Assembly (NCBI GenBank): GCA_934792625.1
Contig: CAKVON010000012.1
Coordinates: 1 to 38,585, forward strand
Length of the DNA: 38,585 nucleotides
Source: an uncultured Atopobiaceae bacterium
GTDB lineage: Bacteria; Actinomycetota; Coriobacteriia; Coriobacteriales; Atopobiaceae
Direction: 5' to 3'
A program made the position numbers and the translations under genes. Positions 5,403 through 30,908 of the stretch are shown here, piece after piece; position 1 is the first letter of the stretch; the number at the start of each line of letters is the position of its first letter. The notes under the pieces are model-generated. The model ran no database searches and was not told where the DNA came from. It saw only the letters and a list, made by a program, of their open reading frames with translations.

Positions 5403-5493
5403 GAAACACCCCGCCCGTAGCAACAGCCAAGGCGGCGGAAAGGCAACTATCCGACGAACGGCACCACTGGCGAGAAGTGCGCCGAGATTGCTA

Positions 5494-5521
5494 TTGACAT
5501 ATGAGCGATCGCTCATATACT
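5494..5521 (+). promoter_or_regulatory. Sigma-70-type promoter of the metal-resistance operon
   Basis: TTGACA (5494-5499), a 16-base spacer and TATACT (5516-5521) make a near-consensus vegetative promoter pointing at the ArsR-family gene. The spacer is almost filled by operator 1, so bound repressor would exclude RNA polymerase. Confidence 0.8.
5499..5518. promoter_or_regulatory. Operator 1: perfect 20-base palindrome
   Basis: ATATGAGCGATCGCTCATAT is a perfect palindrome lying between the -35 and -10 boxes. It resembles the ATATGA-N8-TCATAT class of sites bound by zinc-sensing ArsR/SmtB repressors such as CzrA and NmtR (family knowledge). Confidence 0.8.
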
Positions 5522-5536
5522 CATTCTCAACAGTAC

Positions 5537-5556
5537 ATATGAGCGTTTGTTCACAT
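5537..5556. promoter_or_regulatory. Operator 2: imperfect copy of operator 1
   Basis: ATATGAGCG-TT-TGTTCACAT repeats the left half of operator 1 exactly and has a diverged right half. Its centre is 38 bases downstream of that of operator 1, in the transcribed leader. A short perfect palindrome TGTTCGAACA (5556-5565) abuts it. Two sites suggest cooperative repression. Confidence 0.6.
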
Positions 5557-5591
5557 GTTCGAACAAACAGAGAGCGTAAGGGAGGAACGAC

Positions 5592-5957
5592 ATGGCAGAC
5601 ACGCGTGACAGCGCAACCCCGGGCGACGCCGGCGCGGCGCGGCCCATCCCCGCGGGACAGGCGCCCGACCAGCTACCCGACGAGGAGCTTCTCTACGACC
5701 TCGCCGACCTGTTCAAGGTCTTCAGCGACACGACGCGCATCAAGATCCTGTTCACGCTGATGGGCCGGGACCTGTGCGTGGCCGACATCGCCGACGAGAC
5801 GGGCACGACGCAGAGTGCCGTCTCGCACCAGCTGCGCACCCTCAAGCAGGCCCACCTGGTCAAGTTCGAGCGCGACGGCCGCAACGTCGTCTACTCGCTG
5901 GCCGACGACCACGTCTACACCATGCTCAACGTCGGGCTCAGCCACATCTGCGAATAG
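5592..5957 (+). CDS. ArsR/SmtB-family metal-responsive repressor (alpha5-site, probably zinc)
   Basis: A 121-residue winged-helix repressor. Residues 33-104 form the ArsR fold with DNA-reading helix TTQSAVSHQLRTLKQ. The last helix carries Asp105, His107, His118 and Glu121, which matches in spacing the inter-subunit alpha5 zinc/cobalt site of SmtB and CzrA (D-x-H-x10-H-x2-E); the protein ends at Glu121. The alpha3 region has a single Cys (DLCVAD), so a CadC/ArsR-type thiolate site is unlikely. Predicted to leave its operators when Zn(II) (or Co/Cd) binds. The ATG at 5592 has GGGAGGAA seven bases upstream. First gene of the operon with the HMA protein and P-type ATPase. Confidence 0.92.
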   Translation: MADTRDSATPGDAGAARPIPAGQAPDQLPDEELLYDLADLFKVFSDTTRIKILFTLMGRDLCVADIADETGTTQSAVSHQLRTLKQAHLVKFERDGRNVVYSLADDHVYTMLNVGLSHICE

Positions 5958-5999
5958 CAAGGGAGGCGCCGCCGGCGCCCCGCGAGAAGGGAAACCACC

Positions 6000-6218: not shown

Positions 6219-6235
6219 CGGGTCCGCTCCCCCGT

Positions 6236-6312
6236 GGTTGTCCCATAGGGGGCGCCGCTCAGCTTCGCCGCTGGCGCGGCTCAGAAATCGCGGCACCCCC
6301 TATGGGACAACC
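6236..6312. repeat. 77-base interrupted palindrome between the HMA and ATPase genes
   Basis: Arms 6236-6258 and 6290-6312 pair over 17 perfect bases (GGTTGTCCCATAGGGGG with its complement), one mismatch and five more bases (GCCGC/GCGGC). The inner 31 bases are GC-rich and partly self-complementary. No T-run follows, so it is not a plain terminator. It could be an mRNA-stabilising or attenuating hairpin within the operon, or a small palindromic mobile element. I see no second copy of the arms in the window. Confidence 0.75.
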
Positions 6313-6395: not shown

Positions 6396-8375
6396 ATGGC
6401 AGCAAGCAAGCAGACTCCCAAGAAGAGGCGCCGCAAGAAGGAGTCGCTCACCCACAAGCGCAATCGCATCCTGTGCGCGCTCGCGGTGTTCGCGGTCGTC
6501 TTCGCCCTCGACGAGACGGGTCTTCTCGACAGGCTCTTCGGTGGGGTCGGCAGTGTCTACGCCAGCTTCGCGCTCTACCTGGTCCCGTTCGCGATTGCCG
6601 GCCACGACGTGCTTGCCAAGGCAGCCAACAACATCCGTCGCGGCAAGGCCTTCGACGAGAGCTTCCTGATGGCCGTGGCCACGCTCGGCGCGTTTGCCAT
6701 GGTCGCGTTCCCCGACACCGACCCGCACATGGCCGAGGGTGCCGCCGTCATGCTGTTCTACCAGGTCGGCGAGCTGTTCCAGGCCTACGCCGTCGGCAGG
6801 AGCCGCAAGTCGATCGCGGCCATGATGGACATCGCGCCCGACTACGCCAACGTCGAGAGGGACGGCGGGCTCGTGCAGGTGGACCCCGACGAGGTCGCCG
6901 TGGGCTCCACCATCGTGGTCAAGCCCGGCGAGCGCGTCCCCATCGACGGCGTGATCGTCGAGGGCGCCACGCAGCTCGACACCGCCGCCCTCACCGGCGA
7001 GTCGGTCCCGCGCCACGCCGAGGCCGGCGACGGCGTCGTCAGCGGCTGCATCAACATGACGGGCCTCGTCAGGGTCCGCACGACCAAGCCCTTCGGCGAC
7101 TCCACGGTCAGCCGCATCCTGGAGCTGGTGGAGAACGCCAGCGAGAAGAAGGCCAAGACCGAGAACTTCATCACCCGCTTCGCCCGCGTCTACACGCCCG
7201 CGGTCACCGGCGCCGCGGCACTTCTCGCCATCGTCGGCGGGGCCGTCACGGGCTGCTGGGGCGACTGGATCTTGCGCGGCCTGACCTTCCTGGTGGTCAG
7301 CTGCCCGTGCGCCCTGGTGATCAGCGTGCCCCTGTCGTTCTTCGGTGGGATCGGCGGGGCAAGCCGCATCGGCGTGCTGGTGAAGGGGTCCAACTACCTC
7401 GAAGCGCTCTCCGAGGTCGACACCGTCGTGTTCGACAAGACCGGCACGCTCACCAACGGCACCTTCAACGTGGTGGCCATCCACCCCGAGGCCGGCATCG
7501 ACCCCGACTACGTCCTGAGCCACGCCGCCTACGCCGAGGCGTTCTCGGACCACCCGATCGCCCTGTCGGTCAAGGCCGCCTACAGCGGCAAGATCGACCG
7601 CGACCTCGTCCGCGACGTCCAGGAGCAAAGCGGCCACGGCGTCTCGGCACGCGTTGCCGAGAAGACCCGCGAGGCCGAGCACGTGGTCTTGGTGGGCAAC
7701 GACAAGCTCATGCGCGAGCACGGCACGAGCTGGCACGACTGCGAGCTCACCGGCACCATCCTGCACGTCTCGGTCGACGGCGCCTACGTCGGCCACATCG
7801 TCATCGCCGACGTCGTGAAGGACGACGCCGCGCAGACGATCCGCGACCTGCATGCCTGCGGCGTGCGCCGCTGCGTCATGCTCACCGGCGACCGCGAGGA
7901 GGTCGCCGCCGCGGTGGCCGCTCAGCTCGGGCTCGACGAGCACCACGCGCAGCTGCTCCCGGGCGACAAGGTCGACCGCGTCGAGGCGCTTCTGGCTGCC
8001 GAGAAGAACGGCCGCAAGCTGGCCTTCGTTGGCGACGGCATCAACGACGCGCCCGTCCTGACCCGCGCCGACGTGGGCATCGCCATGGGCGCGATGGGCT
8101 CGGATGCCGCCATCGAGGCCGCCGACGTCGTCCTTATGGACGACAAGCCGTCCAACATCGCCCGCGCAATCGGCGTCGCACGCAAGACCATGCGCATCGT
8201 GTGGGAGAACATCGTCTTCGCCCTGGCCGTCAAGCTGATCATCCTGGCGCTGGCCGCCCTCGGCATCGCCAACATGTGGCTGGCCGTCTTCGGCGACGTG
8301 GGCGTGGCGATCATCGCCATCCTCAACGCGATGCGTGCCATGCGCGTGGGCAGCAGCGAGGCTGCGGGCAGGTAG
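6396..8375 (+). CDS. P1B-type heavy-metal-translocating ATPase (Zn/Cd/Pb type)
   Basis: A 659-residue membrane pump that exports soft divalent metals at the cost of ATP. After a very basic N-terminus (KKRRRKK) come the first membrane helices, the actuator motif TGES (200-203), the metal-binding membrane motif Cys303-Pro-Cys305, the phosphorylation site Asp347 in DKTGT, the P1B marker His386-Pro387 in SDHPIAL, and GDGIND (546-551). The block around the CPC motif (SVPLSFFGGIGGASRIG) resembles Zn/Cd pumps rather than Cu pumps. No N-terminal HMA domain is present; a separate gene upstream supplies one. ATG at 6396 with a modest GAGGA. Regulation by the alpha5-site repressor supports zinc or cadmium efflux. 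Confidence 0.93.
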   Translation: MAASKQTPKKRRRKKESLTHKRNRILCALAVFAVVFALDETGLLDRLFGGVGSVYASFALYLVPFAIAGHDVLAKAANNIRRGKAFDESFLMAVATLGAFAMVAFPDTDPHMAEGAAVMLFYQVGELFQAYAVGRSRKSIAAMMDIAPDYANVERDGGLVQVDPDEVAVGSTIVVKPGERVPIDGVIVEGATQLDTAALTGESVPRHAEAGDGVVSGCINMTGLVRVRTTKPFGDSTVSRILELVENASEKKAKTENFITRFARVYTPAVTGAAALLAIVGGAVTGCWGDWILRGLTFLVVSCPCALVISVPLSFFGGIGGASRIGVLVKGSNYLEALSEVDTVVFDKTGTLTNGTFNVVAIHPEAGIDPDYVLSHAAYAEAFSDHPIALSVKAAYSGKIDRDLVRDVQEQSGHGVSARVAEKTREAEHVVLVGNDKLMREHGTSWHDCELTGTILHVSVDGAYVGHIVIADVVKDDAAQTIRDLHACGVRRCVMLTGDREEVAAAVAAQLGLDEHHAQLLPGDKVDRVEALLAAEKNGRKLAFVGDGINDAPVLTRADVGIAMGAMGSDAAIEAADVVLMDDKPSNIARAIGVARKTMRIVWENIVFALAVKLIILALAALGIANMWLAVFGDVGVAIIAILNAMRAMRVGSSEAAGR

Positions 8376-8473: not shown

Positions 8474-10696
8474 ATGGCCAAGCACACAGGCGGCAAGGCG
8501 GGCGCGCCCGAGCGTCCTTCTCGGCAGGCTTTCCTGCCCGTCTCGCGCGCCGACATGGACGAGCGCGGCTGGGACCGGTGCGACTTCGTCTACGTCTGCG
8601 GCGACGCCTACGTCGACCACCCCAGCTTCGGCATGTCGATCGTCACCCGCACGCTCGAGGCGCACGGCTTCCGCGTGGGCGTGATCTGCCAGCCCGACTG
8701 GAACGACCCGGACAGCGTCTCGGCACTGGGCGAGCCGCGCCTGGCCTTCCTGGTGAGCGCGGGCAACATGGACTCGATGGTCAACCACTACACTGTGGCC
8801 AAGCGCCGCCGCGGCAAGGACTTCTACTCCCCCGGCGGCAAGACGGGCATGCGCCCCGACCACGCCTGCGTCGTCTACGGAAACCTAATACGCCGCAGCT
8901 ACAAGCACGTGCCGATCCTGATGGGCGGCGTCGAGGCGAGCCTGCGTCGCCTTGCCCACTACGACTACTGGTCCGACTCGCTCAAGCGCTCCGTCCTTCT
9001 GGACTCGGGCGCCGACATGATCTTGTACGGCATGGGCGAGAAGTCCATCGTCGAGGTCGCGGAGGCCCTGGACTCGGGCCTTCCCGTCAACCAGATCACC
9101 TGGATCGCGGGCACGGTCTACCGCACGCGCACGACCGACGACCTCGTCGATTACGAGACGCTGCCCGCATACGACGAGCTACGGCGCGACCGGATGGCCT
9201 ACGCGCGCAGCTTTGCCGTCCAGTACCGCAACATGGACTCGATCACCGCGCATTGCCTGGTTGAGCCCTACCCCGACGACAACCTGCTGGTGGTGCAGAA
9301 CCCGCCTCAGCCGCCCCTGACCACCCCCGAGCTCGACGCCGTCTACGAGCTGCCCTACGCCCGCGCCTGGCACCCCGACTACGACGCGGCCGGCGGCGTG
9401 CCCGCCTTCGACTTCGACGAGGTGCGCTTCTCGATAGCGGCCAACCGCGGCTGCTTCGGCGAGTGCAGCTTCTGCGCGATCACCTTCCACCAGGGCCGCG
9501 TCCTGCAGGTGCGCAGCCACGACAGCATCATGCGCGAGGCCGAGGCGCTCACGCACGACCCCAGCTTCAAGGGCTACATCACCGACGTCGGGGGCCCGAC
9601 GGCGAACTTCGGCCGCCCCGCCTGCGACAAGCAGGCCACCCGCGGCGTGTGCTCCAACCGCCGCTGCATGTGGCCGACCATCTGCAAGAACATGGTCGTC
9701 GAGGAGGACTCCTACGCACGTCTGCTGCGCGATTTGCGCCAGCTTCCCGGCGTGAAGAAGGTCTTCGTCCGCAGCGGCGTGCGCTTCGACTACACCCTGG
9801 CCGACAAGTCCGACGAGTTTTTGGACGAGCTCGTCCAGCACCACGTGTCGGGCCAGCTGCGCCTGGCGCCCGAGCACGTGAGCGACACGGTGCTCGCCGC
9901 CATGGGCAAGCCGCCGCGCTCGGTCTACGAGGCGTTCTGCCGCCGCTTCGAGCGCGTGACGCGCGCGGCCGGGCTCGAGCAGTACGTCGTGCCGTACCTC
10001 ATCTCCAGCCACCCCGGCTCCACCATGAAGGAGGCCGTCGAGCTGGCCGAGGCAGTCCGCGACATGGGCTACATGCCCGAGCAGGTGCAGGACTTCTACC
10101 CCACCCCCTCGACCATGAGCACGTGCATGTTCTACACGGGCGTCGACCCGCGCACGATGGAGCCGATCTACGTGCCGCGCGACCCCCGCGAGAAGGCCAT
10201 GCAACGAGCCCTGATCCAGTACCGCAAGCCCGAGAACTGGCACCTGGTGCGTGAGGCCCTTCGCCGCGCGGGCCGCGAGGACCTGGTCGGGTTCGGCCCC
10301 AAGTGCCTCATCCGCCCCTACCCGCCCAAGGACGCGGGTGCCGACGGGCGCGGCGGCAGGGGCGCGGCAGGCGGCAAGGGCTCAGCCGGCGGGCACGGGC
10401 AGCGCGCGGGCAAGGGCTCGGCGTCCGGCAAGGGTCGCGGCGGCAAGGGCTCGGCGTCCGGCAAGGGTCGCGGCGGCAAGGGCTCGGCCGCGGTTGGCGG
10501 ACCCAAGGGTCGTGGCGGCAAACCCGCGCCTGGTGGCGGCCACAATCCCAGTGGGATGCCCAAGGGCCCGAAGGGTCCGGGCAGCCCGAAGGGACCCAAG
10601 GGACCCAAGGGCATGAGCCGATCGCAGAACGCCGCCGCGCGCAACCGCGCCGCACAGGGCCGCCAGGGGGCCAACCGCGGCGGGCATCGCCACTAG
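8474..10696 (+). CDS. YgiQ-family radical SAM protein with Gly/Lys-rich tail
   Basis: A 740-residue member of the UPF0313/YgiQ family. The N-terminal third begins FLPVSRADMDERGWDRCDFV, the family's conserved opening; the radical SAM cluster is Cys-x3-Cys-x2-Cys in NRGCFGECSFCAITFHQGR, near residue 325. The exact reaction is not established for the family. From about residue 625 the protein becomes low-complexity, rich in Gly, Lys, Ser, Pro and Arg (GKGSASGKGRGGKGSASGKG), a disordered, probably nucleic-acid-binding tail; E. coli YgiQ also has a basic tail, but this one is long. ATG at 8474 preceded by GAGGGG. The open frame extends far upstream but overlaps the ATPase gene and is not coding there. 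Confidence 0.9.
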   Translation: MAKHTGGKAGAPERPSRQAFLPVSRADMDERGWDRCDFVYVCGDAYVDHPSFGMSIVTRTLEAHGFRVGVICQPDWNDPDSVSALGEPRLAFLVSAGNMDSMVNHYTVAKRRRGKDFYSPGGKTGMRPDHACVVYGNLIRRSYKHVPILMGGVEASLRRLAHYDYWSDSLKRSVLLDSGADMILYGMGEKSIVEVAEALDSGLPVNQITWIAGTVYRTRTTDDLVDYETLPAYDELRRDRMAYARSFAVQYRNMDSITAHCLVEPYPDDNLLVVQNPPQPPLTTPELDAVYELPYARAWHPDYDAAGGVPAFDFDEVRFSIAANRGCFGECSFCAITFHQGRVLQVRSHDSIMREAEALTHDPSFKGYITDVGGPTANFGRPACDKQATRGVCSNRRCMWPTICKNMVVEEDSYARLLRDLRQLPGVKKVFVRSGVRFDYTLADKSDEFLDELVQHHVSGQLRLAPEHVSDTVLAAMGKPPRSVYEAFCRRFERVTRAAGLEQYVVPYLISSHPGSTMKEAVELAEAVRDMGYMPEQVQDFYPTPSTMSTCMFYTGVDPRTMEPIYVPRDPREKAMQRALIQYRKPENWHLVREALRRAGREDLVGFGPKCLIRPYPPKDAGADGRGGRGAAGGKGSAGGHGQRAGKGSASGKGRGGKGSASGKGRGGKGSAAVGGPKGRGGKPAPGGGHNPSGMPKGPKGPGSPKGPKGPKGMSRSQNAAARNRAAQGRQGANRGGHRH
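10409..10488 (+). repeat. 33-base tandem repeat (2.4 copies) in the ygiQ-like gene
   Basis: Two identical 33-base units (10409-10441 and 10442-10474) and a 14-base partial copy encode GKGSASGKGRG repeats in the disordered tail. Identity at every base implies recent duplication, so length may vary between strains. Confidence 0.85.
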
Positions 10697-10719: not shown

Positions 10720-12156
10720 CTACCCCAGGGTGACCGCGTCGGCGCCGTCGATCACGACGTTGGCCGAGAGGAACGCGCGCAGGGCCGCCTCGCCCAGGGC
10801 CACGTCGGCCACGCCCGCCGTCTCGAAGCAGGAGTGCATGGCCAGCTGGGGCAGGCCCACGTCGACGGCGTGCATGCTCACCTGCATGTTGGACAGGTTG
10901 CCCAGGGTCGAGCCACCCGCCATGTCGGAGCGATTGGCGAAGACCTGGTGCGGCACGCCGGCGTCGTCGAGGATCGCCGCGAACACGGCACGACTGAACG
11001 CGTCGGTGCAGTAGTGCTGGTTGGCGGCCTCCTTGATCGCGATGCCCCCGTTCAGACGGCACCTGTTGGCCTCGTCGTGCTTCTCGGCATGGTTGGGGTG
11101 GACGGCGTGGGCGTTGTCGCAGCTCACGAGCATCGAGCGGGACAGGGCGCGCAGGTGCTGCTCGCGCGTCAGGCCCAAACGGCCGCTCACGCGCGACAGG
11201 GTGTCGCGCAGAAGGGTCGACATGGCGCCCTGCTTGGTGTTGGAGCCGACCTCCTCGTTGTCGAAGATGGCCACGACGCTGACCGAACGGTCGTTGTCAG
11301 ACGCCACGAGCGCGCGAAGGGCCACGTAGGCGCACATGAGGTCGTCGAGCCTGGGCGCCGAGACAAACTCCGACGCCTCGCCCCACACCAGCGGCCGCTG
11401 GCGGTTGACCAGAAACAGGTCCCTGGCGAGAAGTGCGTCCGGCTCGCAGCCGGCCTCGCGGGCGACCATCCGGTCGAACGCGCCGGCGGAAAGGGCGCCG
11501 GCGGACATGACGGGGCACAGGTCCACCTGGCGGTTGGGCGAGAAGGACTCGTTGACCGAGTGGTCCAGGTGGATGGCCAGGCTCGGGATGACGGCGATGT
11601 CGCGGTCGGGCGCGACCAGGCGGCTCTCGACGCGCGCGCCGTCGCGCACCAGGGCGCGGCCGGCGACCGAGAGGGGTCGGTCGAACCAGGTGTGGTCGAT
11701 CATGCCGCCGTAGGCCTCGACGTCCAGACGCAGGTAGCCCTCGGGCCCGGACAGCTCGGGCGAGGCCTTGACCTTGAACGTCGGCGAGTCGCTGTGGGCG
11801 GCCAGCAGCTGGAAGTGGTAGCCCGCCGTGGGGTCGACGCCAGCCGCGGGGTCGGCCGCGGCCGCGTCGCCCAGCGCGTTCGCGCCCACGCGGAACGCGA
11901 CGATGCTCGAGTTGTTGCGCGTGACGTAGTAGCTCCCGCCCGGCTCGACGTCCCAGGCGTCGCCCTCGCGCAGGGGCACGAAGCCCGCCTCGGCCAGGCG
12001 ACGCTCGCAGGCGGCAACGGCGTGGAAGGCGCTCGGGCTCTCGGCGACGAAGTCGCACAGGCCGCGGGCGGCCTCGACGTCGGCGGCGGTCGGCTTCACG
12101 GCGGTGGCGTCGGTCGCGGCGGTGGTGGCGACCTCATGGTTCTTCTCGGCAGTCAT
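10720..12156 (-). CDS. M18-family aminopeptidase
   Basis: A 478-residue dinuclear zinc aminopeptidase that removes N-terminal, often acidic, residues from peptides in the cytoplasm. Family blocks seen in order: AAHSDSPTFKVK (first metal-ligand His), the segment with DDLMCAYVAL, DNEEVGSNTKQGA (acidic catalytic/metal residues), SCDNAHAVHPNHAEKHD, SDMAGGSTLGNLSN, and LPQLAMHSCFETAG (C-terminal His ligand). The first 25 residues are an Ala/Thr-rich extension. ATG at 12156 has GGAGGAAA at good spacing. It follows the flavin reductase-like gene by nine bases and is probably co-transcribed. Converges with the ygiQ-like gene, only 23 bases apart and with no obvious terminator. Confidence 0.93.
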   Translation of the reverse strand: MTAEKNHEVATTAATDATAVKPTAADVEAARGLCDFVAESPSAFHAVAACERRLAEAGFVPLREGDAWDVEPGGSYYVTRNNSSIVAFRVGANALGDAAAADPAAGVDPTAGYHFQLLAAHSDSPTFKVKASPELSGPEGYLRLDVEAYGGMIDHTWFDRPLSVAGRALVRDGARVESRLVAPDRDIAVIPSLAIHLDHSVNESFSPNRQVDLCPVMSAGALSAGAFDRMVAREAGCEPDALLARDLFLVNRQRPLVWGEASEFVSAPRLDDLMCAYVALRALVASDNDRSVSVVAIFDNEEVGSNTKQGAMSTLLRDTLSRVSGRLGLTREQHLRALSRSMLVSCDNAHAVHPNHAEKHDEANRCRLNGGIAIKEAANQHYCTDAFSRAVFAAILDDAGVPHQVFANRSDMAGGSTLGNLSNMQVSMHAVDVGLPQLAMHSCFETAGVADVALGEAALRAFLSANVVIDGADAVTLG

Positions 12157-12785: not shown

Positions 12786-13571
12786 ATGCTGAGGTTCGAG
12801 CGCTACGAGACGCCCGAAACGCCGCAGGCGGCATACGAGCTGTTGCAGGAAACGAGGGGCGCCACCGTCATCGGCGGCATGATGTGGCTTAGGCTCGCCA
12901 GCCGCGTCGCCCCCATGGGAATCGACCTGTCTCGCTGCGGGCTCGACAAGATCGAGCACGAGGGCGGCGAGTGGCGGATCGGCGCCATGGTCACCCTCGA
13001 GCGCCTGAGCGCGCACACGGGCTTTGCCGAGGCCACGCGCGGCTGCTTCACGCAAGGCGTGCGCGACATCGTGGGCGCGCAGTTCCGCAACCTCGCGACC
13101 GTGGGCGGCAGCGTCTACGCGCGCATGGGCTTCTCGGACATCCTGACCGCGCTTCTGCCCCTGGACTGCGACGTCGAGCTGGTGGGCGCGGGCAGGGTCG
13201 GGCTCGCCGAGTTCGCGGCGAAGGGCGCCCCCAAGGACGTGCTGACGCACGTGGTCGTGCGCGACCACGACTACCGCGCGCGCTTCGAGAGCGTGCGCAA
13301 CTCCGCCACGGACTTCTCGGCGGTCAACGCCTGCGCCGCGCTGTGGGACGGACGCTGGCGCGTCGCCGTGGGCGCGCGCCCGTCGCGCGCCACGCTCGTG
13401 GGCGAGGGCGGCGTCGCCCTGCCCGAGCACTTCTCGGCAGACGAGCTCGAGGCACTTCTCGCCAGCGTCGCCGGGGTCAAGTTCGGCGACGACCGCCGCG
13501 CTTCCGCGGCATACCGCGCCCAGGTGGCGCCCGTCCTGGTTCGCCGCGCCATCGAGGAGGCACTCGCATGA
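12786..13571 (+). CDS. Molybdenum hydroxylase FAD-binding subunit (xanthine dehydrogenase family)
   Basis: A 261-residue FAD subunit that passes electrons from the iron-sulfur clusters to NAD+ or another acceptor. It has the FAD_binding_5 pattern: TVIGGMMWL near residue 30 (equivalent to the VGGGTDL segment) and NLATVGGSVYARMGFSDILTALL near 105-125 (pyrophosphate-binding loop), then the CO-dehydrogenase flavoprotein C-terminal domain. ATG at 12786 follows AAGGAG. Its TGA overlaps the next ATG in ATGA (13568-13571), so the two are translationally coupled subunits of one enzyme. Confidence 0.9.
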   Translation: MLRFERYETPETPQAAYELLQETRGATVIGGMMWLRLASRVAPMGIDLSRCGLDKIEHEGGEWRIGAMVTLERLSAHTGFAEATRGCFTQGVRDIVGAQFRNLATVGGSVYARMGFSDILTALLPLDCDVELVGAGRVGLAEFAAKGAPKDVLTHVVVRDHDYRARFESVRNSATDFSAVNACAALWDGRWRVAVGARPSRATLVGEGGVALPEHFSADELEALLASVAGVKFGDDRRASAAYRAQVAPVLVRRAIEEALA

Positions 13572-17465: not shown

Positions 17466-17489
17466 CGAACACGTCGTCGGATAGCTCCG

Positions 17490-17545
17490 AACGAGAAGTG
17501 CGGGCCACGTACCCCCCCGTACGCGGCCCGCACGCTCTTCTCGTT
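17490..17545. terminator. Bidirectional terminator built from an inverted pair of the dispersed motif
   Basis: AACGAGAAG plus TGCGGGCC (17490-17506) pairs with GGCCCGCA (17525-17532) and, after a four-base bulge, CTTCTCGTT (17537-17545). The loop holds a further small dyad. It lies between convergent genes (stops at 17465 and 17575). The left arm includes the motif GAGAAGTGC. Confidence 0.75.
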
Positions 17546-17574
17546 AGTGTTTGGCCGTCCCTGTGGCGGCTTGG

Positions 17575-18457: not shown

Positions 18458-18528
18458 GCACTTCTCGCCAGTCGAAATTCGAAAGTCAGTCAGTTTATGC
18501 GCACGAACCCACGCCAGGTGAGAAGTGC
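18458..18528. repeat. Two facing copies of the dispersed motif upstream of the DegV gene
   Basis: GCACTTCTCGCCA (18458-18470) and GAGAAGTGC (18520-18528) lie in opposite orientation 49 bases apart in the spacer between the DegV gene and the tmRNA terminator. A dyad TTGAC-GA-GTCAA (18548-18559) lies nearby. The spacer (18427-18596) must also hold the DegV promoter; I could not place it with confidence. Confidence 0.6.
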
Positions 18529-19006: not shown

Positions 19007-19174
19007 ACATAGGGTCGGGGCCGATTGCCACCATGCGAGTGTCAGTGTTCGGGCCCGCGACGAGCGCGGGTCTGTCCATTCTACCCACTTTGCGTCCCAC
19101 CATGCACGGCGCCGTGCCGAGAAGGACGTCGCGTGGGCCATGGCGCGAACGACGGCAGCACGGCCCGGCGGCGC

Positions 19175-20140: not shown

Positions 20141-20321
20141 CCGCCTTCCCTCCCGCGGCGCCACGAGGTGGCGCACGCCCGTTCTTCTCGGCATCCGACG
20201 TGGATGCATACCAGAAGCACGATACTCCAAAGTGTCGATGTCTCAATCGGCGAACGGCACCTGGTTGGACTACGATTGGAGAGAAGTGCGCCCCGTGGCG
20301 GGCGCCGCGTATCCGCGGGAG

Positions 20322-23062: not shown

Positions 23063-25114
23063 CTAGTGTACCCCGTCGGGCACGCGCCCCACAGCCCCAC
23101 CCACGAGCGCGAGGCCGATTCTGCCGCGCGCGGGGCAGGCGTCGGTCACGCGGACGGCGACACGCATGCCCGGGCGCCACACCCGGCCCGTCGACTCGCC
23201 GCGAAGCGAGAGTCGCGCCTCGTCGAACGAGAACCACTCCTCCCCCATCGCGCGCACCGGCACCAGGCCCTCGGCCAGGGTCTCGTCCAGCGTCACGAAC
23301 ATGCCGAAGCGCTCGCAGCCGGACACGACGCCCGAGACGACCTCGCCCACGCGGCCCGCATAGAGCTCGGCGAGCTTGACCCTCTGCGAGGCACGGGCCG
23401 CCGAGTCGGCCACCCGCTCGCGGTCCGAGCAGGTGCGGCAAAGCTGCGCGAGCTCGCGGTCCTGCTCGGCACGCACGCGCGGCGAGTCGCCATGGCCCAG
23501 GGACAGCTTGAGCGCGCGATGTACGATCACGTCGGGATAGCGCCTGATGGGCGAGGTGAAATGGCAGTACGCGCGGGCGGCCAGCGCGTAGTGGCCACGG
23601 TTGTCGGGCATGTAGGTCGCGCGCGCCTGGGCACGAAGCAGCAGCGCGTTGACCAGCGCCGCGGCAGGCGTGCCATGGACACGACGCAGCACCGCCTGGA
23701 TGGCAAACTGGTCGCCCGCGGCCACGAGGTCCGCGTCGGCACCACGTGCCAGGCCCAGCTCGCCGAGCACGGGAAGCGTGGCGAGAAGTGCGTCGGGCAT
23801 CGGCGGCTCGTGCACGCGGAAGGCCGCCGGCGCGCCGTCGCGCCACAGGCGCTCGGCCACGCACTCGTTCGCCAGCAGCATTGCCTCCTCGACGAGCGAG
23901 GTCGCGCGGGTGCGGGAGCGAATGCACACGCCGGTGGGGCGGCCATGCTCGTCGAGCGTGACCTTGGACTCGCTGGTCTCGAAATCCACCGAGCCACGGC
24001 GCTCGCGCACGGCCAGGCGCCTCTGGGCGAGCTCGTCCAGAAGGGCGAGCGCCTCGGCAACCTCGTCGCGCACCCCGGCATCGCAGTCCAACCCTGGCGC
24101 GTCGAGCCTGCCCTCCAGCAGGTCGTCGACCGAGTCGTAGTCCAGCCTGGCCTTGGACCTGATTGCCGAGGCGCACTCGCGGTGCGACGTAACCTCTCCC
24201 GCGGGCGTCAGACGCACGAAGACCGACATGGCAAGGCGGTCCTCGCCCGGGCGCAGCGAGCACACGTCGTTGCACAGGCGCTCGGGCAGCATCGGGATCA
24301 CGCGGTCGGCAAGGTATACGGAGCAGGTGCGCTGCCTGGCCTCGAGGTCGACCGACGTGCCCCACCCGACGTAGTGCGACACGTCGGCGATGTGGACGCC
24401 CAACTCGTAACCGCCATCTTCCAGCCGACGGCACGACACCGCGTCGTCAAAGTCGCGCGCGTCGGCCGGGTCCACCGTCACGCAGAGAAGGTCGCGCAGG
24501 TCGCGGCGCCACGGCTGGCGACTCAGCGCGTCGTCGACGTTCGCGCGAATGGCCTCGGCCTGCTCGAGCGCCGGTGGCGGGAAGGCGACCGGAAGGTCGT
24601 ACGAGGCCACGACGGCCTCGACGTCGAGGTCGAGCTCGGAGCCCGATCCCACGCGACGGTCAAGCGTGACCACCCCCGCCTCGCGACGAGCCGGGTAGGT
24701 CAGAATACGCGCGACGACGACGTCACCCTCGGCGACGCCCAGGCGCTCGGCCGAGTCGTCCTGCGGCAGCACGAAGAAGTCGCGACGGATGCGCTCGTCG
24801 AGCGGCACGACCGCGCCCAGGGGCTCGGCCACGCCATAGGTGCCCAGGAAAGTCGCGACATTGCGCTGCATGACGGACTGGACGTAGGCCTGCGGCTGGC
24901 CACCGCCCACGAGCGAGACGCGCACGACGTCGCCATTCATGCCCTCCCGAAGGCCACGACGGGCGACCTCGAAGGTCCCCTCCTGCGTGTCGACGAAGGC
25001 ATGGCCCGGTCGCAGCACGCGCAGCGTGCCCTCGACGAGCCTGCTGGCGGACCGCCCGCGACGAGCGCCGTTGCCGCCGCGGGCACGCGACGAGCGCGAA
25101 CGCTTCCTGCCCAT
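23063..25114 (-). CDS. rnr: Ribonuclease R (RNB/S1 exoribonuclease)
   Basis: A 683-residue 3'-to-5' exoribonuclease. The order is: basic N-terminus (about 25 residues, RKRSRSSRARGG), cold-shock domains (to about 190), the RNB catalytic domain with DPADARDFDDAV (metal-binding Asp cluster, about 215-226) and CHFTSPIRRYPDVIVHRAL (about 530), then an S1 domain with GVVSGCERFGMFVTLDETLAEGLVP. Shorter than the 813-residue E. coli enzyme, lacking its N-terminal helix-turn-helix and long Lys-rich tail. RNase R degrades defective mRNA released by tmRNA-SmpB, which fits its place upstream of smpB. ATG at 25114 follows GGGGGAG. Confidence 0.94.
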   Translation of the reverse strand: MGRKRSRSSRARGGNGARRGRSASRLVEGTLRVLRPGHAFVDTQEGTFEVARRGLREGMNGDVVRVSLVGGGQPQAYVQSVMQRNVATFLGTYGVAEPLGAVVPLDERIRRDFFVLPQDDSAERLGVAEGDVVVARILTYPARREAGVVTLDRRVGSGSELDLDVEAVVASYDLPVAFPPPALEQAEAIRANVDDALSRQPWRRDLRDLLCVTVDPADARDFDDAVSCRRLEDGGYELGVHIADVSHYVGWGTSVDLEARQRTCSVYLADRVIPMLPERLCNDVCSLRPGEDRLAMSVFVRLTPAGEVTSHRECASAIRSKARLDYDSVDDLLEGRLDAPGLDCDAGVRDEVAEALALLDELAQRRLAVRERRGSVDFETSESKVTLDEHGRPTGVCIRSRTRATSLVEEAMLLANECVAERLWRDGAPAAFRVHEPPMPDALLATLPVLGELGLARGADADLVAAGDQFAIQAVLRRVHGTPAAALVNALLLRAQARATYMPDNRGHYALAARAYCHFTSPIRRYPDVIVHRALKLSLGHGDSPRVRAEQDRELAQLCRTCSDRERVADSAARASQRVKLAELYAGRVGEVVSGVVSGCERFGMFVTLDETLAEGLVPVRAMGEEWFSFDEARLSLRGESTGRVWRPGMRVAVRVTDACPARGRIGLALVGGAVGRVPDGVH

Positions 25115-25189: not shown

Positions 25190-26113
25190 CTACACCTTGA
25201 GGTAGCGGCGCATGGCGATCAGCGAGCCAAACAGGCCGATGAACACGCCGACCGCCACGAGCATGCCGTAGATCTTGACCATGGTCTCGGCAGGAAGCGA
25301 GAAGGTCAGGAACGACAGGCTGCTCTCGAGCTTGGGGATGGCGACGTTGCAGACGCCCTGCAGGACACCGATGGTGAGAAGCGCGCCGAGAAGTGCCTCG
25401 AGCACGCCCTCGGTGATGAAGGGCCCGCGGATGAAGCCGTTGGACGCGCCGACCAGGCGCTCGATCGCGATCTCGCGGCGACGGGCGGTGATGGCGAGCC
25501 TGATCGTGTTGTTGATGAACACGAAGGCGACGAACACGAGAAGCAGGACGAGCACGCCGGCAATGGCGCGGACGTAGTTCGTGACACTGAAGAGGCGCTC
25601 GACCGTGCCCTGGCCGTAGAGCACCGAGGCGCTGGCGTCGCCGTCGTCGGCGATGGCCTGGAAGTCTGTGTCGTCGATCAGGTTCTGGGCAATGGTCGTG
25701 ACCTGCTTGGGGTCGCGAAGCTTGACCACGAGCGACGCGGGGACGGGGTTGGTGCCGTCGAGGGCGGCGACGGCCGCCTCCGCGTTCTTGTTGGACATGG
25801 TGTCCTTGTACTCCTGAAGAGCCTCTTCCTTGCTTTTGTAGGTGACGGACTCGACCTCGCTCCAGCCCTCGATCTTGGACTTGAGCGAATCGACGGCGGT
25901 TTGGTCGGCCCCGTCGGCAATGAACGCCTGGATCGTGACCTTGTCCTCGACGCTGCCGACCATGTTGTTGAGCATGACCGAGCCGATGACGAACAGGCCG
26001 ATGATGAACAGGGACAGGAAGATCGTGACGACGGCGCCGAGGACCGTGGACCAGTTCCTGCGGAAGTGGTGTGCGGCCTCGCGCAGCGAGTAGCCGATGT
26101 TAGTAGGAGCCAT
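25190..26113 (-). CDS. ftsX: Cell-division ABC transporter permease FtsX
   Basis: A 307-residue membrane protein: a short cytoplasmic start (IGYSLREAAHHFRRNW), one membrane helix (about 24-46), an extracytoplasmic domain (about 50-180) that in other bacteria activates a peptidoglycan hydrolase, then three more helices with RREIAIERLVGASNGFIRGPF between them. FtsX forms a complex with the ATPase FtsE. The start overlaps the end of ftsE by 14 bases. The hydrolase partner is not encoded in the window. Confidence 0.94.
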   Translation of the reverse strand: MAPTNIGYSLREAAHHFRRNWSTVLGAVVTIFLSLFIIGLFVIGSVMLNNMVGSVEDKVTIQAFIADGADQTAVDSLKSKIEGWSEVESVTYKSKEEALQEYKDTMSNKNAEAAVAALDGTNPVPASLVVKLRDPKQVTTIAQNLIDDTDFQAIADDGDASASVLYGQGTVERLFSVTNYVRAIAGVLVLLLVFVAFVFINNTIRLAITARRREIAIERLVGASNGFIRGPFITEGVLEALLGALLTIGVLQGVCNVAIPKLESSLSFLTFSLPAETMVKIYGMLVAVGVFIGLFGSLIAMRRYLKV

Positions 26114-27152
26114 AGTAGCCGTAGCCTCCCCTCTCCTGGTCGCGGACGACGTGGCCGCCCTCGAGGGCGATGACGCGCTTGCGCATGGTGTCGACCATCT
26201 CGCGGTCGTGCGTGGCCATGAGCACCGTCGTGCCGTTGCGGTTGATCAGCTCGAGGAGGTTCATGATGCCGCGCGAGATCGCGGGGTCGAGGTTGCCCGT
26301 GGGCTCGTCGCAGACGAGCAGCGGTGGGCGGTTGACCATGGCTCGGGCGACAGAGACGCGCTGCTGCTCGCCACCAGAGAGCTGGTCGGGGTAGCTGTCC
26401 ATCTTCTCGCCCAGGCCGACGAGGCGAAGCACCTCGGGGACCTGCGCCTTGATGACGGAACGCGGCTTGCCGATGCACTCGAGCGCGAACGCGACGTTCT
26501 CGTAGGTGGTCTTGTCGGGCAACAGCTTGAAGTCCTGGAAGACGCAGCCAATCTGGCGACGCAGGTACGGAACCTTCCAGTTTCGCAGCGCGGTGAGGTC
26601 CTGGCCGGCGACGATGACCTTGCCATGCGTGGCCTTGAGCTCGCGCGTAAGCAGCTTGAGGAAGGTCGACTTGCCCGAGCCGGAGTGACCGACGAGGAAG
26701 ACGAACTCGCCGGGATAGACGTCGAGGGTGACGTCATCGAGCGCCGGCTTGTTGGGCTGCGCGGGATAGATCTTCGTGACGTTGCGCATGGAGATCACGG
26801 GGTTGGACGAGCGCGGGACGACGGGGCTGTCGTCGGAGGGCTCGGGGAAGCCTGCCGAGAAGGACGGGTCGGCAGCGGCGGGCGCCGCGACTGCCAGGCC
26901 ATCGTCCACAACCTGGAAGGCACCCGTGGATGCGGCGTCATCGACCTGCGGAACGCTCAGGTCGACCTGGGTGGCCTGCTGCTGGACAGGCTGGGCGACA
27001 GGCTCGAAGGGCTGCTGGTCCTGATACCCGGCGTCGACGCTCGTGTCGGGCTCTGGGGCCATGGGCGGAACCTGGGAAGACAGAGGCGCCTGGGGCGCCT
27101 GGTCGACCTCGGGCAGGTCCTGCGGGCCCCGGTTGGCGAAGTGGTTTGCCAC
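26100..27152 (-). CDS. ftsE: Cell-division ATP-binding protein FtsE with 121-residue N-terminal extension
   Basis: A 350-residue protein. Residues 122-350 are a full-length Fts[18 protein letters not shown], Walker [10 protein letters not shown], the FtsE-typical [24 protein letters not shown], signature [15 protein letters not shown], Walker [13 protein letters not shown] and a Tyr/Gly-rich end. The first 121 residues are Pro-, Gln-, Asp- and Ala-rich with no predicted fold. GTG at 27152 is chosen because AAAGGAG lies six bases upstream, whereas the internal Met122 has no such site. The frame is open to 27572 but enters the transketolase gene. First gene of ftsEX. Confidence 0.93.
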
Positions 27153-27175
27153 AAGAGCTCCTTTGGTGCGTTTAG

Positions 27176-27286: not shown

Positions 27287-27348
27287 GAATGCGCTGGTGC
27301 TTCTCGGCAGGGGCCTTCTTGGCGGCGACCCCACCCGTGGGAGAGGCG

Positions 27349-28290: not shown

Positions 28291-28293
28291 CGG

Positions 28294-29115
28294 TTATGCC
28301 TCCTTCGCGAGATCGGCCATGGCCTGCTCGTACTGCTCGTCGTTGGGGGCCTTGCCGTGCCAGCCGACCTGGTTCTCCATGAAGGAGACGCCCTTGCCCT
28401 TGACCGTCTCGGCCACGATGCAGGTGGGCTGGCCCTTGGTGGCGCGGGCCTCAGCGAACGCGGCGCGCAGCTGTGCCATGTCGTTGCCGTCGGCGACCTC
28501 GATGACGTGGAACTTGAAGGCGCGGAACTTCTCGGCGATCGGCATCGCGGAGTTGACCTCGTCGATGGTGCCGTCGATCTGCAGGCCGTTGTGGTCGACG
28601 ATCACGCAGAGGTTGTCCAGCTGCTGGTTGCCCGCGAACATGGCGGCCTCCCAGACCTGGCCCTCCTCGCACTCGCCGTCACCCAGCAGGGTGTAGGTGC
28701 GGTAGTCGTCGCCCCAGTGCTTGGCGGCAAGCGCCATGCCCACGGCGGCGGAGATGCCCTGGCCCAGCGAACCGGTGCTCATGTCGACGCCGGGGGTGTC
28801 GTTCATGTTGGGGTGACCCTGCAGGTGGCAGCCGATGTGGCGCAGGGACTCAAGGTCGGACTTGGGGAAGTAGCCCTTCTCAGCAAGCGCGGAGTACAGG
28901 CCGGGGGCAGCGTGGCCCTTGGAGAGCACGAAACGGTCACGACCGGCCCAACGGGGCTCGTCGGGGCGGACGTTCATCTCCTCGAAGTACAGGTAGGTGA
29001 GAATGTCGGCGGCGCCGAGGGAACCACCGGGGTGGCCGGACTTGGCGGCGTGGACGGCGGTGACGATGCCGCGGCGAATCTCGCGCGCGACCTTGGTGAG
29101 CTCGTCGTCAGTCAT
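28294..29115 (-). CDS. Transketolase, N-terminal subunit
   Basis: A 273-residue half-enzyme with the ThDP diphosphate-binding domain: HAAKSGHPGGSLGAADILTYLYF, then DRFVLSKGHAAPGLYSALAEKG, and the metal/diphosphate motif GDGECEEGQVWEAAMFAGNQQLDNLCVIVDHN (GDG...N). Split transketolases are common in anaerobic bacteria. ATG at 29115 follows AAAGGAGGAGG; the frame continues to 29187 but into a hairpin. Second gene after transaldolase. Confidence 0.95.
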   Translation of the reverse strand: MTDDELTKVAREIRRGIVTAVHAAKSGHPGGSLGAADILTYLYFEEMNVRPDEPRWAGRDRFVLSKGHAAPGLYSALAEKGYFPKSDLESLRHIGCHLQGHPNMNDTPGVDMSTGSLGQGISAAVGMALAAKHWGDDYRTYTLLGDGECEEGQVWEAAMFAGNQQLDNLCVIVDHNGLQIDGTIDEVNSAMPIAEKFRAFKFHVIEVADGNDMAQLRAAFAEARATKGQPTCIVAETVKGKGVSFMENQVGWHGKAPNDEQYEQAMADLAKEA

Positions 29116-29136
29116 GTCCTCCTCCTTTCGTATAAC

Positions 29137-29164
29137 GGGCCGGACGGGTTTCCCCGCCCGACCC
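29137..29164 (-). promoter_or_regulatory. Twelve-base-pair GAAA-loop hairpin between transaldolase and transketolase genes
   Basis: On the minus strand GGGTCGGGCGGG-GAAA-CCCGTCCGGCCC pairs fully (two G-U pairs) with a tetraloop. No T-run follows, so it is more likely an mRNA processing or stability element, or an attenuator, than a terminator. It ends about 22 bases before the transketolase start. Confidence 0.55.
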
Positions 29165-29193
29165 ACGCAATCATCTGCTGTTGGCACGAACGC

Positions 29194-29877
29194 CTACTGG
29201 GCGGCGACGACCTTCGCCCAGTCGGCGGCGAAGCCCTCGAGGCCCTTGTCGGTGAGCGGGTGGTGCACGCACTTCTTGAGCGCGCCGAACGGCACGGTGG
29301 CGATGTCGGCGCCCATGAGGGCAGCCTGCGTCACGTGGTTCGGGGTGCGGACGGAGGCGGTGATGATCTCGGGGCCACCCTCCTGCTCCCAGTAGCCGTA
29401 GTCGAAGTTCTTGACGGCCTCGACGACCGTCTCGAGCTGGGACAGGCCGTCGTCGCCGATGTCATCGAAGCGACCGACGAACGGGGAGATGTAGCGGGCG
29501 CCGGCGCGGGCGGCGAGAAGAGCCTGCGGGGCCGAGAAGACCAGCGTCATGTTGACGCGGACGCCCTCCTTGGCAAGGGTGTGGGTCGCGGGCAGCGAGG
29601 CCTCGCAGATGGGGAGCTTGACGACGATGTTGGGGGCGAGTGCGGCGAGGCGACGGCCCTCGGCAATCATCTCCTCGGTGGTCTCGGCAGTAGACTCGGC
29701 CGAGACGGGAAGGCCCTCGCAGATCTCGCAGATCTTGACCATGTGACCCTCGAAGTCAGCGAGCTTGCCGCCGGTGCGGGCGTAAAGGCTCGGGTTGGTG
29801 GTCACGCCGGAGAGAATGCCCCAGCTGGCCGCCTCCTTGATCTCGTCGAGGTCCGCGGTGTCGATGAAAAACTTCAT
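29194..29877 (-). CDS. tal: Transaldolase of the short FSA/TalC type
   Basis: A 227-residue class I aldolase fold. It starts MKFFIDTADLDEIKEA, contains GVTTNPSL near 24-31, the Schiff-base lysine Lys87 in NIVVKLPI, TLVFSAPQALLAARAGARYISPFVGRFDD, and ends with the KKCVHHPLTDKGL family tail. Transaldolase of this short type moves three-carbon units between sugar phosphates; some relatives are fructose-6-phosphate aldolases and the two cannot be told apart with certainty here. ATG at 29877 follows GGAAAGGA. Beside the two transketolase halves it completes the non-oxidative pentose-phosphate branch. Confidence 0.92.
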   Translation of the reverse strand: MKFFIDTADLDEIKEAASWGILSGVTTNPSLYARTGGKLADFEGHMVKICEICEGLPVSAESTAETTEEMIAEGRRLAALAPNIVVKLPICEASLPATHTLAKEGVRVNMTLVFSAPQALLAARAGARYISPFVGRFDDIGDDGLSQLETVVEAVKNFDYGYWEQEGGPEIITASVRTPNHVTQAALMGADIATVPFGALKKCVHHPLTDKGLEGFAADWAKVVAAQ

Positions 29878-30029
29878 TGCATCCGTCCTTTCCAAACGAA
29901 ACGTGCTGACTTTGCCCTACGGGTATGACTATATCGCCTACCCGCCTAAGCTGCCTGTTTCTTTGCTCAATGCCAACTCGGCGCATAAAACATGCGCAAC
30001 ATCATGATAGTAATAGCAAGATATTGCAA

Positions 30030-30908
30030 TTAGGCGCCAAGCTGTCCGAAGCCCTGGCCCAACGCCTCGTACACCTCTGTGATGACGACAAGCGCCTCGG
30101 GGTCGATGTCGGAGACAAGCGTCTTGATGCAGTTAATCTCGGAGCGGCTCAACACCACGAACAGGACAGGCCTGCTGTTGCCCGACCAGACGCCGCGCGC
30201 CTGCAGCTCGGTGCAGCCGCGGTGCATCTCGTACATGACCTGGTTGGCAATCCGATCATGCTTGGTCGAGATGATATAGGCGGCTCGGGAGGTCGAGGGG
30301 CCGTCGATCACGTAGTCGACGACCTTGCTTGCCACGTACATGCAGATCAGCGCATAGAGGGCATTTCTCACCGAGAAGACCGGGATGGACACGCCGATGA
30401 CGATCGCGTCGAGAATGGCCGACGCCACGCCGATGCTGATTGCGGTCTTTCCCGAGAAGAGCTGCGCGATGATGTCAGTGCCACCGGTGTTGCCGCCCGA
30501 GCGGAAGACGAGTCCCAAACCCAAGCCAGAGATGACGCCGCCCCACAGCGCGCACAGCAGGATGTCGCCGCCGCCAAGCGTTGGGGCCACGGGCGCCAAG
30601 GCGTCGACGAACAGGTTCGAGAACAGGATTCCCGCAAGGGTCCTCACCAGATAGTGCTTACCACCGGTACGGATGACCGGGATAAGGAGAAGTGCGTTGA
30701 CGACCAGGCCCTGAAAGCCGATGGGAATGTTAACGCCGGCGCGCAGGCCCACGGCGTTGATGACCGTCGCCAGGCCCGTAATGCCACCAGCGGCCAGTCC
30801 ATTGGGCACCTGGAAGCAATCGACACCGACGGCATACAGGAAGCTGCCGACGATGATGAGCAGTGCGTCGAAAATGGCCCTTCTCTGGATGACGGGCGGA
30901 CGAACCAT
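30030..30908 (-). CDS. YitT-family membrane protein
   Basis: A 292-residue protein with five to six membrane helices in the first 200 residues (the YitT/DUF161 repeat, with GNTGGTDIIAQLF and GLAAGGITGLA as conserved glycine-rich loops) and a C-terminal soluble DUF2179 domain (residues 215-285) ending ...DIDPEALVVITEVYEALGQGF. Its function is not known. The start chosen is ATG at 30908 behind GAGAGAGG; an upstream TTG at 30950 is in frame. It lies 54 bases after prfB, possibly in the same operon. Confidence 0.9.
   Translation of the reverse strand: MVRPPVIQRRAIFDALLIIVGSFLYAVGVDCFQVPNGLAAGGITGLATVINAVGLRAGVNIPIGFQGLVVNALLLIPVIRTGGKHYLVRTLAGILFSNLFVDALAPVAPTLGGGDILLCALWGGVISGLGLGLVFRSGGNTGGTDIIAQLFSGKTAISIGVASAILDAIVIGVSIPVFSVRNALYALICMYVASKVVDYVIDGPSTSRAAYIISTKHDRIANQVMYEMHRGCTELQARGVWSGNSRPVLFVVLSRSEINCIKTLVSDIDPEALVVITEVYEALGQGFGQLGA

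Follow-up and report, generated by a model that had tools for sequence, protein, structure and literature searches.

Self-recognition in bacterial sex has its classic example in uptake sequences, which have been described in two Gram-negative families, as the DNA uptake sequences (DUS) of Neisseriaceae (PMC3630211) and the uptake signal sequences (USS) of Pasteurellaceae (PMC12616744, PMC7811141). Haemophilus influenzae 86-028NP carries 1014 copies of USS10 per Mb (PMC7811141), and inverted pairs that serve as terminators have been reported for both DUS and USS (PMC3630211, PMC12616744). Here we analyse a window of 38,585 bases (the whole stretch of DNA under study) from an uncultured Atopobiaceae bacterium (GCA_934792625.1, contig CAKVON010000012.1), in which a short motif, TGSCGAGAAGNRC, is strongly over-represented. 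We regard it as probable that this motif is a DNA-uptake sequence, accumulated because the competence machinery prefers tagged DNA. Hallmarks of uptake sequences found for it are an excess of about one copy per kb, the lack of strand bias, an excess that is independent of coding, and competence genes in relatives.

The motif resembles the DUS in being a short, non-palindromic and dense tag with clade dialects around a conserved inner core, and in having copies in genes and spacers and inverted pairs at terminators (PMC3630211). It differs from the DUS, whose core is CTG, in that most Atopobiaceae dialects have the core CGAGAA, and its hosts are actinomycetotes; moreover, the DUS receptor is ComP, a type IV minor pilin, and uptake of DUS is proven (PMC3630211), whereas uptake in Atopobiaceae is what we infer. 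The invariant CTG core of a DUS-like word is absent from CGAGAAG..C, the constant part of the motif, whose flanks vary. Likenesses to the USS are density (about 1000 copies per Mb in H. influenzae), terminator pairs, and variation with phylogeny, which the two USS types follow (PMC12616744, PMC7811141). Unlike the constant part of the motif, USS contain the core GCGG (AAGTGCGGT or ACAAGCGGT), and their predicted receptor is a type IV minor pilin (ComN/PpdA) (PMC12616744, PMC7811141). An earlier, sequence-only reading of the window had hinted at kinship with the Haemophilus word AAGTGCGGT; since that word has 0 copies in the window and several dialects lack the TGC end, we take the likeness as chance. 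The AAGTGC overlap with USS is confined to copies ending in TGC, an ending that recurs in enriched words of relatives G031 and G061 and is missing from the top words of G095, G060, G033 and G049. On most features tested the motif would work like DUS and USS, and to judge from its letters it is a member of neither sequence family, the cores of both being absent. As for machinery, the transformation machine of the actinobacterium Micrococcus luteus consists of tad genes and comEA/comEC, with a Flp/Tad cluster and comEA-comEC in the same layout as in G095 (PMC4322843; review PMC6370729). In contrast to our case, the term 'uptake sequence' is absent from the main text of PMC4322843.

The motif in the window

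Recounting gave 13 copies of GAGAAGTGC and 22 of TGSCGAGAAG, exactly the numbers of the sequence-only reading and far beyond chance: shuffled sequences held means of 0.46 and 0.22 copies, respectively, and never more than 2 of either. Under a third-order Markov model GAGAAGTGC (13 vs 0.55) and TGCCGAGAAG (15 vs 0.66) were the top-ranked 9- and 10-mers. The copies had been placed at 5468-30695, in 30 kb; TGSCGAGAAG copies in fact begin at 564 of the 38,585 bases. Position 13 is C in 28 of 28 aligned sites matching either pattern and in all 22 TGSCGAGAAG copies, a pattern that stops short of position 13 and therefore does not preselect the C (chance 0.332^22 = 3e-11 at the base frequency), and the third base after GAGAAG is C in 74 of 86 cases. 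Because this C is constant, the consensus was rewritten as TGSCGAGAAGNRC (hereafter the 13-mer), which describes the motif better and fits 19 of the 22 TGSCGAGAAG copies. The consensus proposed earlier, TGSCGAGAAGTGC, proved to be two flavours, joined in the 13-mer, rather than one motif: TGCCGAGAAG-NAC accounts for 12 of 15 TGCC copies and TGGCGAGAAG-TGC for 6 of 7 TGGC copies. This split was noticed post hoc (Fisher p = 6e-4 in the window) and did not reach significance in six relatives. The window has 39 copies of the core CGAGAAGNRC, or 1.01 per kb.

Orientation is balanced, with plus/minus counts of 10/12 for TGSCGAGAAG (as had been estimated), 8/5 for GAGAAGTGC, 9/10 for the 13-mer and 21/18 for CGAGAAGNRC. 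The motif is asymmetric, and thus is no palindromic octamer of the kind of HIP1, a hyper-abundant and palindromic chromosomal word of cyanobacteria.

The sequence-only reading had argued for a DNA-level signal rather than codon choice, and the excess does survive synonymous shuffling, with spacers enriched as well. Genes were called with a simple codon-model caller, so that starts are approximate, and coding copies were compared with 60 synonymous shuffles. In coding sequence of the window, the 13-mer occurs 14 times vs 0.4 ± 0.6 in shuffles (maximum 3) and the core 30 times vs 8.9 ± 2.6 (maximum 15). The same holds for relatives, with 274 core copies vs 104 ± 8 in G095, 105 vs 12.6 ± 3.2 in G031, and 33 copies of its own dialect vs 5.5 ± 1.7 in G049. 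Spacers hold 9 core copies vs 0.4 expected in the window (tmRNA included among the spacers), 68 vs 4.2 in G095 and 18 vs 0.6 in G031, and 21 copies of its own word vs 0.4 in G033. Motif density is higher in spacers than in genes for the window, G095, G031, G061, G033 and G049 (own word), and equal in the two for G114. Counts in the motif-poor G044 stay close to expectation (2 vs 0.8 in spacers, 29 vs 20.1 ± 3.8 in coding sequence). All eight spacer copies claimed earlier (5472, 17493, 18458, 18520, 19115, 20184, 20281 and 27300) lie outside called genes, where the status of 20184 and 20281 hangs on the starts of two divergent genes, longer frames of which enter the spacer, and that of 27300 on the start picked for ftsE. 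The copies along the window are as follows.

564..576, plus: 13-mer TGSCGAGAAGNRC, within an aldo/keto reductase gene with a 4Fe-4S domain (318-1562)
2292..2301, minus: TGSCGAGAAG then GTC, 10-mer only, within an ABC transporter gene (1662-3482)
3447..3459, minus: 13-mer, within the same ABC transporter gene (1662-3482)
5468..5480, plus: 13-mer of TGG..TGC flavour, in the spacer of two divergent genes as called
7218..7230, minus: 13-mer, TGG..TGC, within a P-type ATPase gene (6396-8375)
7655..7664, plus: TGSCGAGAAG then ACC, 10-mer only, within the P-type ATPase gene (6396-8375)
7997..8009, plus: 13-mer, within the P-type ATPase gene (6396-8375)
8514..8526, minus: 13-mer, within called gene 8474-10696; it may be spacer, because it lies just upstream of 8531, where the YgiQ match starts from its first position
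11077..11089, minus: 13-mer, within an M18 aminopeptidase gene (10720-12156)
11424..11436, plus: 13-mer, TGG..TGC, within the M18 aminopeptidase gene (10720-12156)
12139..12151, minus: 13-mer, at the 5' end of the M18 aminopeptidase gene (10720-12156)
13427..13439, minus: 13-mer, TGC..TGC, within gene 12786-13571
13452..13464, minus: 13-mer, TGG..TGC, near the 13427..13439 copy on the same strand
14902..14911, minus: TGSCGAGAAG then ACC, 10-mer only, within a xanthine-dehydrogenase-like gene (13568-16432)
16376..16388, minus: core copy CGCCGAGAAGTGC, back to back with the 16399..16411 copy
16399..16411, plus: 13-mer, within the xanthine-dehydrogenase-like gene (13568-16432)
16847..16859, plus: 13-mer, within a helix-turn-helix gene (16629-17465)
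17489..17547, no single strand: inverted core pair (17492-17501 plus, 17534-17543 minus) in a convergent-gene spacer, a terminator-like hairpin as predicted
18458..18470, minus: 13-mer, TGG..TGC, in the degV/tmRNA spacer
18516..18528, plus: degenerate copy AGGTGAGAAGTGC, in the degV/tmRNA spacer
19115..19127, plus: 13-mer, in the spacer from tmRNA to gene 19175-20140
20181..20193, minus: 13-mer, in a spacer of divergent genes with uncertain starts
20277..20289, plus: degenerate copy TGGAGAGAAGTGC, in the same divergent-gene spacer as 20181..20193
23779..23791, plus: 13-mer, TGG..TGC, within rnr
25384..25396, plus: core copy CGCCGAGAAGTGC, within ftsX
26853..26865, plus: 13-mer, within called gene 26100-27152; it may be spacer, because it lies upstream of about 26798, the start of the FtsE match
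27297..27309, minus: 13-mer, in the spacer upstream of ftsE
30683..30695, plus: degenerate copy TAAGGAGAAGTGC, within a YitT-family gene

Spread, dialects and layout in relatives

Genome-wide counts were taken in relatives, 140 Atopobiaceae genomes, rather than in the window's own genome, and a genome was called motif-rich when CGAGAAGNRC reached a density of 0.4 per kb and three times that of a reversed-pattern control. Forty-nine of the 140 were motif-rich (0.4-1.2 per kb), and the remaining 91 had a median of 0.146 per kb; G049 was counted among the 91, its control being inflated by overlap of the reversed pattern with its own dialect, CGAGAAGAGC. In Thermophilibacter provencensis (G001, which holds locus L004; 2.2 Mb) CGAGAAGNRC occurs 1064 + 1173 = 2237 times vs 377 for the reversed control. 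Counts far above control in 49 genomes leave the earlier claim of over-representation standing, and the motif is a real DNA-level signal that reaches beyond the window. In a class sample of 396 genomes, family members included, values of at least 0.4 per kb outside the 140 were read off for G238, G292, G310 and G332 only; in G292 and G310 (35 kb) GGCGAGAAG occurs 12 times vs 1.9 and ranks third among 9-mers.

Different clades use different words, which are dialects of the motif, most of them with a CGAGAA core. Words were counted de novo in 100-400 kb per genome, with the window motif left out of the search, and most dialects rest on a single genome. For one word length or more, CGAGAA-type words ranked first or close to it in G095, G031, G060, G061, G033 and G049. 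The dialect of G095 is GGCGAGAAGRAC. In G031 (53% GC) TGGCGAGAAG occurs 31 times vs 1.0, in G060 GGGCGAGAAG 48 vs 2.1, in G061 GGCGAGAAG 43 vs 6.1, in G033 TGCCGAGAA, extended by CGAGAAACCC, 41 vs 1.4, and in G049 CGAGAAGAGC 48 vs 1.6. Weaker CGAGAA-type words were found in G122, G114, G008 and G092, while G026 has CGAGAGGAAC (13 vs 0.5) and G009 a mixture of TGCCGATAA and TGACGAGAA. The motif-poor G044 showed no enriched CGAGAA-type word, and 80 kb each of motif-poor G004, G036, G063, G024 and G056 showed no strong one; weak hints there are CTTCTCGGAC (6 vs 0.4, G004), AACGAGAAGG (7 vs 0.4, G024) and GGTCGAGAA (8 vs 1.1, G056).

Dialects follow host phylogeny with a common inner core, as judged from the de novo words and a tree of CpaF-type ATPases in which 7 of 19 inner branches are well supported. 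Groups recovered in this tree are G029/G031, G118/G122, the set of G001, G003, G095, G104, G114 and G092, and the motif-poor pair G004/G044, so that related genomes share density or dialect.

Other words came up in the same counts. The remaining top words of G095 belong to an interspersed repeat: G095:C3:1-400000 (L097-L116) carries hairpin-like interspersed repeats around TGACAAAGGT and TGCAAAAGTG (31 and 22 copies), which resemble repetitive extragenic palindromic elements. G122:C2:200001-400000 (L147-L156) has the palindromic TGCGTACGCA (16 vs 0.5) and GCGTACGCAC (18 vs 0.6), and motif-poor G036 (54% GC; L243-L246, 80 kb) has GGGAGTAAA (12 vs 0.4 expected), all unrelated to the CGAGAA motif.

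Copies also lie in terminator positions, as reported for uptake sequences. Across nine samples, motif pairs within 40 bases of each other comprise 17 converging (11 in spacers), 7 diverging and 21 same-way ones. In 8 of 9 samples (window, G095, G114, G060, G061, G122, G033 and G049) density is highest in convergent spacers, which in G095 reach 2.51 per kb (19 sites) vs 0.69 in tandem spacers. The converging pair of the window sits between convergent genes ending at 17465 and 17575, and the predicted fold of 17478-17560 has -43.1 kcal/mol (z -5.14). Stems are perfect in some inverted pairs, for instance GGCGAGAAGAAC-GTTCTTCTCGCC in G095, and three overlapping copies of CGAGAAGCGCTTCTCG occur in G061. 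Some of the inverted pairs would form terminator-like hairpins.

The phage models PF04860 (portal) and PF03354 (TerL) had no match in 30 motif-rich genomes (G001-G003, G088-G091 and G093-G115), and matched 4 of 14 and 3 of 14 control genomes, respectively. These 30 genomes are either poor in prophages or carry unusual phages. For lack of such matches, depletion was assessed in relaxase-bearing rather than prophage DNA. Relaxases were matched in 8 of the 30 genomes, at 10 loci, two of which lie inside the two longer stretches and were counted once. The resulting 65.3 kb of non-overlapping sequence, counted whole whatever part of each stretch is mobile, holds 9 sites vs 55.9 at the G095 rate (Poisson 1e-14) and vs a Markov expectation of 4.4. 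The scarcity in mobile DNA that characterises uptake sequences was thus seen for relaxase-bearing stretches. An island test through codon-atypical genes gave no general depletion and was set aside; the ratio over shuffles is mostly higher in less codon-biased genes. The single long motif-free gap in 400 kb of G095 was also rejected as an island, since it holds three sets of rRNA genes. These lie at L110:5412-20000 and L111:1-3438 (G095:C3, about 265-283 kb), with three 16S, three 23S and three 5S genes in tandem adjoining secA and the third 23S spanning loci L110/L111; G060 and G114 have long motif-free gaps at secA too.

Machinery and the proposed uptake system

Competence and pilus genes, which the sequence-only reading had named as a check, were found in relatives (ComEC, ComEA and a pilus locus) and not in the 38-kb window. 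ComEC (PF03772) is present in 137 of 140 family genomes and is therefore useless as a discriminator of motif-rich ones. Matches to TIGR02538 (PilB) occur in 95 of 140 genomes, none of which reaches the cut-off, nor does any of 14 controls, so that the cut-off is of no help here. Strong matches (E below 1e-100) are mostly in motif-poor genomes, with others in G026, G049 and G051, and show no clear link of the motif to classical type IV pili. In G001-G003 and G088-G115 (31 genomes, taken as one genus from order and density) PilB matches are absent or weak (14 of the 31 listed with a match, best 8e-29). Each of the 22 genomes examined has one or more secretion ATPases whose open frame spans 439-488 aa (608 aa in G049); 11 of these genomes (G095, G104, G001, G003, G060, G061, G118, G122, G004, G023 and G012) have a single T2SSE ATPase match.

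In G095 this sole T2SSE ATPase lies within a Tad/Flp locus, where T2SSE, two T2SSF and TadE score above the Pfam cut-offs and RcpC/CpaB and Flp1 below. A separate locus reads comEA-comEC-holA; here the ComEA helix-hairpin-helix, ComEC N-terminal and holA models are above cut-off, and those for full ComEA and ComEC fall short of it. Inspection of translated starts by eye showed comparable gene orders in G031, G061, G033 and the motif-poor G044. The machinery is thus present but not predictive of the tag, which agrees with sequence preference being a property acquired on top of it.

We propose that a short non-palindromic tag, at up to about one per kb, would have built up over the chromosome via preferential uptake. 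Tag-rich DNA of dead kin would be pulled in and recombined, such that tagged alleles displace untagged ones, and tag-poor foreign DNA would mostly be left outside. The tag of the window species would be TGSCGAGAAGNRC, and other clades would use other dialects, most around the CGAGAA core. The tag would most likely be bound by a pilin-like or ComEA cell-surface protein, the Tad/Flp pilus would bring the DNA in, and ComEA-ComEC would pass one strand into the cell. Excess, strand balance, spacers and machinery support the uptake signal proposed in the sequence-only reading, and we infer the uptake step itself along with binding and the reader protein. Beyond this, we lean towards the view that Atopobiaceae have a third, independently evolved uptake-sequence family, with no earlier case in Actinomycetota or in Gram-positive-type bacteria as a whole within the reach of our searches, with several dialects and read by a Tad/Flp pilin or by ComEA rather than by a type IV minor pilin. 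Its dialects would be TGSCGAGAAGNRC, GGCGAGAAGRAC, TGGCGAGAAGNNC, GGGCGAGAAG, TGCCGAGAAACCC, CGAGAAGAGC and perhaps CGAGAGGAAC. The odds of this view are slightly lowered by PilB-class genes, which occur in some motif-rich genomes. No uptake sequence reported for the group turned up among the papers listed from an open-licence library, and a prior description elsewhere is possible.

Several observations weigh against an uptake sequence. The majority of family genomes (91 of 140) fall below the motif-rich threshold. ComEC is near-universal in motif-rich and motif-poor genomes alike and does not predict the motif, a Tad-sized T2SSE ATPase occurs in all 22 genomes regardless of motif density, and strong PilB matches are also present in G026 and G051, both motif-rich, and in G049. 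No paper on natural competence in Coriobacteria with comEC came up in a single search of open-licence literature. Spacers are less dense than genes in G060 (core) and G122, and the G009 word is confined to genes, with 0 copies in 12,180 bp of spacer. The words of G026 (CGAGAGGAAC) and G009 (TGCCGATAA) depart from the CGAGAA core. Spacing is roughly random, with a coefficient of variation of 0.95-1.75 and no evening-out. Converging pairs are few overall and lacking in G122 and G049, and in G095 the converging type does not dominate among close pairs (6 converging, 1 diverging and 12 same-way; expected 2.9, 2.9 and 5.8). Convergent-spacer counts are mostly 2-4 sites, with 0 sites in 2979 bp in G031. 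Of 5 samples, 4 show no depletion in codon-atypical genes, G122 being the only one that does (2 in 20.7 kb). Finally, an RNase R tree puts the window beside the motif-poor metagenome-assembled genomes L001/L002 (support 82/96), which would mean either an old device with losses or repeated gains.

If the proposal is true, a third unrelated origin in actinomycetotes would indicate that the device evolves repeatedly, and Atopobiaceae, for which the literature searched yielded no competence report, would take up kin DNA. Genera rich and poor in the motif, alike in their pilus and ComEC genes, would then be a natural comparison, which bears on how receptors gain sequence specificity and why tags accumulate. 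Moreover, tagged DNA might render the hard-to-engineer Atopobiaceae transformable.

Alternative explanations and neighbouring genes

Among the alternatives, a chromosome-architecture word fares best, although we consider it unlikely. The motif would be a directionless site for a nucleoid or chromosome-organising protein, in a role comparable to that of cyanobacterial HIP1. For HIP1, we know of no terminator pairs or dialects of the uptake-sequence kind. Wide spread and the even presence on both strands and in spacers and genes agree with such a role, and a clade-wise change of word could track a DNA-binding protein as well as an uptake receptor. Against it, the word lacks palindromic symmetry and is scarce in relaxase-bearing DNA, and terminator inverted pairs with core-conserving dialects are what has been published for uptake sequences (PMC12616744, PMC3630211).

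A modification signal, that is, an asymmetric DNA methyltransferase site kept in excess for regulation or restriction self-recognition, is improbable. Scarcity in relaxase-bearing DNA would fit a self mark, but tolerance in the flanks and drift into CGAGAAACCC or CGAGAGGAAC dialects are unlike enzyme specificity. Asymmetric words of such length are the usual targets of type IIG, type III and BREX-like systems; restriction sites, however, are rarely in such chromosome-wide excess.

We give very little credence to a signal for recombination or segregation, like Chi, KOPS or matS, that acts on its own strand or region. The word is short, frequent and non-palindromic, as such a signal would be, but its forward fraction is 0.473-0.528 across the 49 motif-rich genomes. 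Genome-wide balance alone would not exclude a replichore-wise bias; within one contiguous 400-kb stretch of G095, judged without a located origin of replication, the copies number 167/175 by strand, and both orientations occur in 19 of 20 bins, the last of which has one site. The case against Chi and KOPS that the sequence-only reading had made from balanced orientation therefore holds at both scales, and this candidate was rejected.

A by-product of codon use (Ala-Glu-Lys, Phe-Ser) plus high G+C has next to no probability and was ruled out by synonymous shuffling and the spacer excess given above, including that of G031 at 53% GC, even though coding copies favour certain frames and the 29 copies in G044 genes equal the shuffle maximum (29), such that a mild codon-pair effect may exist.

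The window itself is, to judge from its gene content, chromosomal DNA of an Atopobiaceae species, with housekeeping genes that include secA, a peptide-chain release factor, YitT-family, fructose-6-phosphate-aldolase-like, transketolase halves, ftsE, ftsX, rnr, tmRNA, ygiQ and others. Its RNase R has its best matches in Atopobiaceae of Coriobacteriia (64-65% identity). SecA matches among the 140 family genomes reach 80% at full length and 84% in part, and the window therefore has no close relative among them. A 1057-aa gene with a BTAD domain at 34993-38166 has a single core site (35712) and overlaps the stretch of lowest GC in the window (32001-36000, 0.605); it is possibly a recent arrival. 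At 20073-21707, a ThrE-type exporter combines ThrE and ThrE_2 domains in a single 544-aa frame.

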